From a virus, in the IMG/VR virus record IMGVR_UViG_3300028410_000056, positions 1-26,770 of that record: DNA of 26,770 bases; one strand, written 5' to 3'. The notes under the pieces are model-generated. The model had not been told where the DNA came from and did no database searches. It was given only the letters and a program-made list of their open reading frames with translations. Positions 3,787 through 22,028 of this stretch are shown piece after piece. A program made the position numbers and the translations under genes. Positions within the stretch are counted from its first letter, which is position 1. Each line of letters starts with the position of its first letter.

Positions 3787-4032
3787 ATGAGACAAGCACC
3801 TAGTGATGATGATCTAGTAAAACACTGAGCTTATAACATAGCTAAGTGAGAGATAGAAGAAGCACTCCAAGAGATACAGCTATCTAACTACGACAAAGAA
3901 GTAACAACAACAGCTTACCATAGAGTAATAAAATATGCTATGATGCTAAAAGATATACTAGTAGAAGAAGACCCAACACTATACAACAAAGCAAGTAAAG
4001 AGTATTTAGATACTGATAATAAAGATGAATAA
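3787..4032 (+). CDS. Small acidic helical hypothetical protein (81 aa)
   Basis: The protein begins MRQAPSDDDLVKHG and is mostly helical and acidic (EIEEALQEIQLS, MLKDILVEEDPTLYNKASK). Two UGA codons are read as glycine (VKHGAYN, AKGEIEE). It starts six bases after the preceding UAA and its last codons overlap the next start by eight bases, implying coupled translation. No domain is recognised. Confidence 0.6.
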
Positions 4033-4486
4033 AGAACAACTAACCACACGATACCAAGGTCAGTTCGCTAGTAAGGAGTTGAGCTTTGGGTGTAGAATTT
4101 CTTATGACGGAGATTTATGAGGTAGAGAATACTGAAAGTTTGTTTGTCGCTATGACGTAATGAATCCAGACGAGGATATTGAAATACAAATAAGTAGAGC
4201 ACCTAGATTCTATAAGGTATTGAGAGATTCAGGTAATTTTCTTGAACAGTTACTTATATGAAAACATAACTTTGAAAACATAGGACACCCACTAACACGA
4301 GGGAGATTATATCAGGAGCTGTTAGTAAATAAGTATTGTGGTATGACGGAGATATGACAGTTTCTTGATCCCATACTGAGAGAAAAGCTGCGGAAATCCA
4401 GACTCCTAGACAAAACTATCTACGAATGGGTAGAAGTGCCTGAGATCTACGAGATACTTTTATCAATAAAAGATAACTATGAGTAA
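4025..4486 (+). CDS. Hypothetical protein (153 aa)
   Basis: A 153-residue soluble protein ending in UAA. The N-terminal half is beta-like (CRISYDGDLGGREYGKFVCRYDV), the C-terminal half helical (FLEQLLIG..., DPILREKLRKSRLL). Five UGA codons are read as glycine. It overlaps the gene upstream by eight bases, and its own end overlaps the start of the (Gly-X)n repeat gene by eight bases. Its last codons (LLSIKDNYE) include one copy of a 21-bp direct repeat found again at 5189-5209. No family is recognised. Confidence 0.55.
4458..4478 (+). repeat. 21-bp direct repeat, copy 1 (inside a coding sequence)
   Basis: This segment, beginning TTTTATCAATAAAAG, is repeated exactly at 5189-5209. Here it encodes the end of the 153-aa protein; the second copy is intergenic. 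Both copies are directly followed by a gene start (4479 and 5213). Confidence 0.8.
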
Positions 4487-4787
4487 CACTACGCTAGAAG
4501 ACCACAAAACGTGAGAATGAGACTGAGACTGATACTGAGACTGATACTGAAACTGAAACTGAAACTGATACTGAGACTGATACTGAAACTGAAACTGAAA
4601 CTGAAACTGATACTGAGACTGATACTGAAACTGATACTGAAACTGAGACGGATACTGATACTGAAACTGATACTGATACTGAAACTGATACTGAGACTGA
4701 AACTGATACTGAAACTGAAACTGATACTGATACTGAAACTGAAACTGATACTGAAACTGAAACTGAGACTGAGTTACTATCCTTTAA
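4479..4787 (+). CDS. (Gly-Asp/Tyr/Asn)n dipeptide-repeat protein encoded mainly by UGA (102 aa)
   Basis: ATG 4479 overlaps the upstream stop. After an 11-residue head (MSNTTLEDHKT) every second codon from 4512 to 4770 is glycine: 43 UGA and a single GGA (4650-4652). The intervening residues are Glu once, then only Asp, Tyr or Asn, giving a (G-D/G-Y/G-N)43 tract before a short VTIL tail and UAA. The lone GGA in register with the UGA codons is internal support for UGA=Gly. Under the standard code translation would stop after 11 residues. Gly-Tyr/Gly-Asn repeats are typical of flexible, self-associating or elastic low-complexity proteins in general; the role here is unknown. The other two forward frames are also open, a result of the 6-bp period, but would give Thr-Asp/Glu or Lys/Leu/Ile repeats without a start overlapping the upstream stop. 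Confidence 0.6.
4512..4772 (+). repeat. Hexanucleotide tandem repeat (TGA-NAC)n, about 43 units
   Basis: The array is a 6-bp period TGA followed by GAC, TAC or AAC, running for about 260 bp with almost no departures except a GAA at the start and one GGA (4650). Variation is confined to one base of the unit, which changes only Asp/Tyr/Asn in the coding frame. Such an array should be prone to slipped-strand length change in steps of two residues without loss of frame. Confidence 0.9.
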
Positions 4788-4806: not shown

Positions 4807-5187
4807 ATGAAAGAACAACTTATCGAGAAAATCCTAGAGAAATATTTACTAGGTGAAACAGAACAAACAGAAAGTAATAACCCTTTTATATGAAAGTATG
4901 TGATTGTAAGAGGTTATGATGCTTGAGTATGGTGTGGTAAACTTATAGACTGAACAAAAGGTAATATCATCTTAGAAGATGCTAGAAACTTATGGAGACG
5001 ATGGTGTAAAGAGTGAATAGGTCTATCTGGTCTAGCTTCTTATTGACTAGCGGATAAAGACGTAGTTAAGGTATTAGAAACACAGAAGAAGATAATGATT
5101 ACTGATGAGAGAGTATCTACTTTCTTTATAGTAGAAAAAGATATAGAGAAACAGCTAAGAGAATGGAAGACAGCAGAACAAAGTTAA
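4807..5187 (+). CDS. DUF6948-like conserved phage protein (126 aa)
   Basis: The sequence YVIVRGYDAGVWCGKL, followed by IILEDARNLWRRW, then GLSGLASYGLADKD and a C-terminal IMITDERVSTFFIVEKDIE, follows the layout of a phage family usually listed as DUF6948 (IVRTYSAGVFAG..., NARRLWYW..., SLSQLA..., IIPCTEKA). The function of the family is not known. Position 40 of the protein, a UGA codon (4924-4926), falls on the conserved glycine of AGV, which supports the recoding. Six UGA codons in total. The leader is CCTTTATATACCC. The gene lies between the Gly-X repeat gene and a small Cys-rich protein. Confidence 0.7.
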
Positions 5188-20828: not shown

Positions 20829-22028
20829 ATGGCTAATTCATTTAACGCATCGTTCAAGGAAGTTTGGGCGAAAGAACAACAGACAGTATTCTACAAACTT
20901 AACGTAGCAAAACAGATTGCAGATATGAGCTTCCAAGCTTCTTTGTCTAGCGGTGACACTCTAAACAGAACTTACAGAAGCTCTGCTGGAACACCTGCTT
21001 CTTACACAAGAGGTACAGACATGGTTGAAAGAACACTCACTGACACTAATGAGTCAATGACTATCAACCAAGAGTACTATGACTTCTTCTACATTGACGA
21101 CCATGACAAGATTCAGAATGACTACAATGCTGCTGTAAACTACGGTAAAGACGGTGGAGAAACTCTCTCTGACCTTATTGATGCTAAAGTATTGGGTGAA
21201 GCTGTAAACGCTACATCTACTATGGATGCAGGAGACGTTGGAGGTTCAGCTGGTACAGGTATCACTCTTACAACTGCTAACGTTGTTAAGACAGTATCAG
21301 GTGCTACAAAGAAAATGAAGAAATTGAACGTTAAAGGTGCTAACAAATATGGTGTAATCTCACCTGAATTTGAAGACATCCTCGTTCAGTACGGAGTAGC
21401 TAGAGAAACAGACATGGGTGATGGGCTCAATAGAAAGCCTGAATTTATGAACTGGCTCGGTTACAAGTTGTATGTTTCTAATAACAACTCAACTTCTGCT
21501 GTACTACAGTTGGCTACACAGCCTACAGCTAATGACACAGTAGTTATCGAAGGTGTAACATTCACATTCGTAGCTTCTCCATCTGCTGCTGGTGATGTAG
21601 ATATTGGTGCTAATGTAGATGCTACAAGAGTAAATCTTGAGACTCTAATCAACGCTCCTACTGTTACTACTGCTGGAGGTGTTGCTCTCAGTACAGAAGA
21701 CGCTAAGTTGTTCACAGCTTACGTTTCTGCTGTAGACGATGCTGCTGGAGATACTCTTACTGTTACTGTTCAGGGTGCTGGTACAATCACTGTATCTGAG
21801 ACTCTTACAGACGGTACAGATGTCTGGGCTTTGGCTAAACAACATCTTCTATTCGGTATTCAAGGTAACCCATCATTGGTTATCCAACAGGATGCTAGTA
21901 TTGAATTTGTTAAGGCTGAGAAGAGAAAGGGTTACTTCTACCAGAATACGATCCTATTCGGTACTAAGACCTTTGTAGACAACGCTAAACAGATGGTGAA
22001 AGTAGATATTGCTTCTGCTGGATTCTAA
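20829..22028 (+). CDS. Major capsid protein (399 aa), HK97-like with an inserted domain; contains no UGA codon
   Basis: Follows the scaffold gene and precedes a strong terminator. N-terminus MANSFNASFKEVWAKEQQTV, a central GANKYGVISPEFEDILVQYG and NWLGYKLYVSNNN, and a C-terminal FFVKAEKRKGYF-like/LFGTKTFVDNAKQMVKVDI region fit phage capsid proteins of the P22/podovirus type. Residues about 218-330 look like an inserted beta domain (TANDTVVIEGVTFTFVASPS, AGDVDIGANVDATRVNLETL, GDTLTVTVQGAGTITVSE), a type of domain seen in many phage structural proteins. By my count the protein has 33 glycines, none encoded by UGA, in contrast to its neighbours; TTG, CTC and GCT usage also differs. The leader is TGATTTATAATTCATA. 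Confidence 0.88.
   Translation: MANSFNASFKEVWAKEQQTVFYKLNVAKQIADMSFQASLSSGDTLNRTYRSSAGTPASYTRGTDMVERTLTDTNESMTINQEYYDFFYIDDHDKIQNDYNAAVNYGKDGGETLSDLIDAKVLGEAVNATSTMDAGDVGGSAGTGITLTTANVVKTVSGATKKMKKLNVKGANKYGVISPEFEDILVQYGVARETDMGDGLNRKPEFMNWLGYKLYVSNNNSTSAVLQLATQPTANDTVVIEGVTFTFVASPSAAGDVDIGANVDATRVNLETLINAPTVTTAGGVALSTEDAKLFTAYVSAVDDAAGDTLTVTVQGAGTITVSETLTDGTDVWALAKQHLLFGIQGNPSLVIQQDASIEFVKAEKRKGYFYQNTILFGTKTFVDNAKQMVKVDIASAGF

Follow-up and report, generated by a model that had tools for sequence, protein, structure and literature searches.

Phages of Gracilibacteria and Absconditabacteria that use genetic code 25 carry dense in-frame UGA codons for glycine across their genomes (PMC10746230), and the main text of that paper lacks the word 'repeat' and does not appear to treat a UGA array gene. 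Literature searches on DUF6948, on glycine-rich phage repeats and on phage Sm-like proteins yielded nothing relevant. Rings of Hfq and of Sm/LSm proteins are modulated by tails that are disordered and acidic or of low complexity. In this report, we characterize a repeat gene in the window (the whole stretch of 26,770 nucleotides of viral DNA that was analysed, IMG/VR record IMGVR_UViG_3300028410_000056), which is the form, written in UGA, of a phage gene that is widespread; the broader module to which it belongs, a pairing of DUF6948 with a (Gly-X)n polypeptide, is undescribed in the literature searched and is the more interesting finding. The features of the locus are as follows.

4025..4486, plus strand: upstream open reading frame of 153 aa, without a family; it shares its last 8 nt with the start of the array gene.
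4479..4787, plus strand: (Gly-Asn/Tyr/Asp)n gene of 102 codons read with code 25, from a frame check and relatives beside DUF6948.
4518..4772, plus strand: tandem array of the hexanucleotide TGANAC (N is A, T or G, never C), from TRF (period 6/18) and unit counts.
4807..5187, plus strand: DUF6948 (PF22253) gene with a predicted Sm/LSm fold, from Pfam (2.5e-14), AF2 (pLDDT 89.5) and Foldseek against the PDB.

The array gene runs from ATG to TAA and holds 43 TGA and one GGA among its 102 codons, with 18 AAC, 16 TAC and 8 GAC as second codons and a single GAA near the beginning; the sole GGA lies inside the array in the context GAC GGA TAC. Read with code 25, the product is MSNTTLEDHKTGEGDGDGYG...GNGDGVTIL*, a protein of net charge -10 that belongs to the DUF6948-linked (Gly-X)n class, defined as short frames in which glycine alternates strictly with a small or aromatic residue (S/Y/D/N) over at least six units. 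Its start codon at 4479 lies in an overlap with the end of the upstream frame (TAA at 4484-4486) and not with the stop of DUF6948, and the DUF6948 gene follows on the same strand after a gap of 19 nt, which places the array upstream of its partner. A sequence-only reading of this DNA had reported the UGA share and its alternation with AAC, TAC or GAC, the single GGA, the ATG overlapping the upstream stop and the UAA end; the frame check confirms this description. The upstream frame has no match in Pfam or PHROG and no relative among viral contigs, PADLOC found no defence match and Rfam matched nothing at the array. Matches of the array to Pfam TrAA12 and to an NCBIfam serine-rich family were rejected as low-complexity artefacts.

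For the array product to be made, UGA must be glycine. Code-25 translation of the window gives matches to a terminase, a head-tail adaptor and a major head protein, and its other open reading frames use in-frame UGA for 213 of 680 glycine codons (about 31%), compared with 43 of 44 in the array gene. The proposal, first made from the letters, that the gene could be made only where UGA is glycine is supported. The major capsid gene (20829-22028) has no UGA among its 33 glycine codons (24 GGT, 8 GGA and 1 GGG), probably reflecting codon choice under high expression. Elsewhere in the window, positions 1658-1746 hold a tRNA-like element that scores 31.2 bits, just over the Rfam tRNA threshold, and that ARAGORN matches only with an intron allowed and with the anticodon ACA, not UCA; it is perhaps a degenerate tRNA or a tRNA-like RNA.

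All six frames are open over the array, so the openness of its frame proves nothing, and the frame was therefore tested against relatives. A search with the DUF6948 of the window alone led to L085 (62% identity), in which the array is built of TGA-NAT in place of TGA-NAC, a change that is synonymous if UGA is glycine; it leaves the Gly-X reading unchanged and turns the (Thr-Glu/Asp) frame into (Ile-Glu/Asp). UGA arrays of 48 and 34 units adjoin DUF6948 in L039 and L027, and in L028 arrays of 26 and 47 units flank it on both sides. The two arrays of L028 (1841-1996 and 2489-2770) share an identical leader, MEELEDFKEASG. Their arrangement suggests that the array gene was duplicated around its DUF6948 partner. 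The viral contigs of IMG/VR were all scanned, to completion, for a 42-base pattern of seven TGANAY units. Of the 50 contigs that matched, only L027, L028, L039 and L385 (the contig of L085) hold long arrays mixing three bases. All four are code-25 contigs, with an open-frame coverage of 0.06-0.30 under code 11 and 0.58-0.80 under code 25, and all their arrays abut DUF6948. In the remaining contigs the matches are for the most part monotonous runs, and most of these can be read in another frame with the standard code. Six recoded contigs were examined, and five of them have UGA arrays. In a phylum scan around a Gracilibacteria MAG, DUF6948 was found in 2 of 380 genomes, and no UGA array in 353 members of the class, which may not use code 25.

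The same gene is also written without UGA. In the code-25 contig L090, DUF6948 is followed by MSNIIGSGYGYGSG..., with 29 GGT and one GGA, and GGC arrays are carried by the standard-code phages that were retrieved when the DUF6948 of the window was the sole query. Among the annotated DUF6948 phages that were examined, GGC arrays are found in phiPLPE (where the array frame is unannotated), in Taid and six close Pectobacterium relatives, in Setonix, in ctRVW222 and in Vibrio IKEMa6-1; the array of ct8d5349 is degenerate. Because the UGA-coded relatives keep the form ATG-(UGA-NAY)n-stop and the standard-code relatives keep the pattern with GGN, we trust the Gly-X frame, and to judge from this conservation the gene at 4479-4787 is very probably translated.

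We also took DUF6948 as the starting point and collected 80 viral and 70 bacterial-genome loci, with an array defined as at least six units. A same-strand array is present in 74/80 viral and 57/70 bacterial-genome loci, proportions that may run somewhat high because the query was built from array-bearing loci, a bias of which the hits to the window's own DUF6948 are free. In this sample, 126 arrays lie within 250 nt of DUF6948, none on the opposite strand and 124 of them downstream. Among 137 array frames, the nearest ATG overlaps the DUF6948 stop in 122 (median -12 nt). Gene order varies within the code-25 group: most of its arrays precede DUF6948, those of L028 flank it and that of L090 follows it, and a downstream position was for that reason not used as a membership criterion. 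In L136, DUF6948 and the (Gly-X)n array form a single open reading frame, a natural fusion. Loci of the Bacteroidales type have the array joined to a C-terminal domain some 150 aa long that has no match in Pfam, and in L169, L208, L121 and L178 the array is likewise fused to a conserved domain of about this length (AHGET...TGSC..GR), also without a Pfam match. The pairing is kept in most loci and across many phyla, with the same residue alphabet although the founder codon has been UGA or any of the four GGN codons; the arrays contain about 15% Tyr and 13% Asp, and the search was built so as to admit no basic residues. The pair is neighboured by phage genes of early or accessory type, including repressors, integrases, methyltransferases, helicases and annealing proteins. 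The claim that no phage gene of this kind had been described holds for the literature searched but not for the genomes, in which it is widespread. At L091:1200-1403, L093:1505-2077 and L378:3286-3531 the annotation omits the (Gly-X)n frame or calls a shifted one (MAMALA...), and in ctRVW222 and CV-1-33 the array is annotated in a wrong or shifted frame.

The dominance of one glycine codon in the window array is common to these arrays. In the DUF6948-first sample, a single glycine codon reaches a share of 95% or more in 103 of the 131 arrays, and GGC, GGG, GGT and GGA are each found as the pure codon of standard-code arrays; since those arrays show purity too, it is a property of the repeat, best explained, we infer, by slippage or unequal recombination of the six-base unit. 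The array is hypervariable: between the phages Ymer and Amona, the 1774 bp that precede it and the 1169 bp that follow it show 100% identity, whereas the arrays themselves differ in length (222 and 204 nt) and in a scrambled order of units. Array length ranges from 21 to 39 units among close relatives.

A further property of the UGA arrays is the near absence of serine, which fills only 2 of the roughly 236 X positions (AGC each time, in L028), whereas it is the commonest X in non-UGA arrays, nearly always as TCC or TCT. The combination TGA-TCN would create GATC, which is under-represented: observed and expected counts are 0 and 16 in L039, 0 and 13 in L027, 27 and 41 in L028, and 47 and 92 in the window. 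The counts suggest that L039 and L027 avoid GATC as a restriction site, with the same but weaker trend in the window, and it is plausible that such avoidance lies behind the use of Asn in place of Ser. Several further palindromes are likewise depleted.

The partner was modelled twice: a mixed alignment with the window sequence at its head gave a pLDDT of 89.5, and an alignment restricted to standard-code sequences gave 89.4. Both AlphaFold models begin with a helix and three long strands, after which come an inserted helix, more strands and a final helix, in agreement with the Sm order of an N-terminal helix and a five-strand barrel. In Foldseek searches of the PDB, the best 50 matches were all of the Sm/LSm type for both models, with lowest E values of 4e-4 and 1e-3 and a target-normalised TM of 0.45-0.77 in most cases, and the viral library returned other DUF6948 proteins, a phage 'Sm-like' protein and a phage 'RNA binding protein'. 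The alignment conserves a G-V-x-x-G-x-L core, and no clear RG of Sm2 is seen. A sequence search against the PDB gave no match, so the Sm assignment is a prediction at the level of the fold, and DUF6948 is predicted to have an Sm/LSm-like fold.

Several other readings of the array deserve weighing. A near-neutral coding minisatellite, in which a hexamer slips within a dispensable small gene whose protein has little function and the pattern lasts only because the unit is in frame, would account for the extreme change in length and order between otherwise identical regions of Ymer and Amona and for the one glycine codon per array, and any frame would stay open through its six-base steps. Such a repeat would hardly be kept beside DUF6948 across many phyla, however, with the same residue alphabet from five founder codons, with start codons that mostly overlap the DUF6948 stop and with natural fusions to DUF6948 or to the C-terminal domain, and we consider this reading unlikely. 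It is less likely still that the array is a DNA or RNA element, such as a recombination hot spot, an iteron or a leader RNA, whose translation is incidental. The regular hexamer, its hypervariability and the recombination and replication genes nearby would suit such an element; nevertheless, the DNA unit varies (TGANAC, TGANAT, GGCNNC, GGGNNC, GGTNNT, GGANNT) while the amino-acid pattern is constant, the array always lies on the strand of DUF6948, and the folding of its RNA is no stronger than that of shuffles (z -1.1).

The sequence-only reading had also offered a lock that limits expression to recoded hosts, or a strong consumer of tRNA-Gly(UCA), either of which would mean that the gene exists to be UGA-rich. 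The excess of UGA over the other window genes and the frequency of UGA arrays in recoded contigs speak for this proposal, to which we nevertheless give very little credence: L090 has the gene in GGT under the same code, standard-code phages and prophages have it without UGA and with comparable purity for each GGN codon, and a lock would be redundant beside the in-frame UGA codons of the other window genes. On the evidence of the sequences, the UGA content follows from the homogenisation of codons in a phage that uses code 25, and neither a lock nor a sink is needed to explain it. Finally, the (Thr-Glu/Asp) frame of the window is stop-free from 4498 into DUF6948 and has the variable base in the third codon position, as an N-terminal extension of DUF6948 might, yet no start codon precedes the array in this frame, L085 would read (Ile-Glu/Asp)n there, stops part it from DUF6948 in L085, L039 and L027, and the conserved reading in standard-code relatives is Gly-X; that another frame is the real one is barely credible, and both (TE/TD)n and (VS)n were rejected on the relatives.

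We therefore prefer, as the probable explanation, that the window gene is the code-25 member of a widespread pair in which a predicted Sm-like DUF6948 protein is accompanied by a Tyr-bearing, acidic (Gly-X)n polypeptide, here with UGA as the homogenised founder codon. The product would be a low-complexity polypeptide, as the sequence-only reading rightly supposed, translationally linked to its partner, with glycine in strict alternation with Ser/Tyr/Asp, or Asn/Tyr/Asp here. The six-base unit would multiply and homogenise by slippage or recombination until one glycine codon overran the array, and in this phage, where UGA is glycine, the founder would have been UGA by chance. Disordered, net negative and Tyr-bearing, the product may serve an Sm-like ring in trans as its flexible tail of stickers and spacers, much as disordered tails serve Hfq and eukaryotic Sm/LSm proteins, the interaction being inferred from linkage and one fusion, and such a tail would concentrate or tune phage RNA-protein assembly early in infection. 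More tentatively, it is possible that the module forms or tunes phage ribonucleoprotein condensates across many bacterial phyla, and that UGA-recoded phages write its tail almost wholly in UGA.

A repeat protein kept through five glycine codons, including UGA, is a natural test of codon reassignment. The module is widespread and largely unannotated, and two 2.9-kb phage stretches differ in nothing but their arrays. The module would link phage biology to low-complexity ribonucleoprotein tails, provided that DUF6948 is indeed an RNA-binding protein of the Sm-like kind. With the standard-code loci of Iodobacter phiPLPE, Pectobacterium Taid, Ymer and Amona, Vibrio IKEMa6-1 and ctRVW222, the window shares the partner gene, the strand, the strict Gly-X alternation and the use of one glycine codon, and its array is similar in length to theirs (6-57 units). 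Unlike those loci, it has UGA for glycine and Asn for Ser, and its array lies upstream of DUF6948 and overlaps another open reading frame. With Sm, LSm and Hfq proteins, the module shares the predicted fold of DUF6948 and a low-complexity partner, here usually a separate polypeptide; DUF6948 differs from Sm/LSm in a helix inserted between strands 3 and 4 and in having no clear Sm2 motif, and the tail is acidic Gly-X, not RGG.
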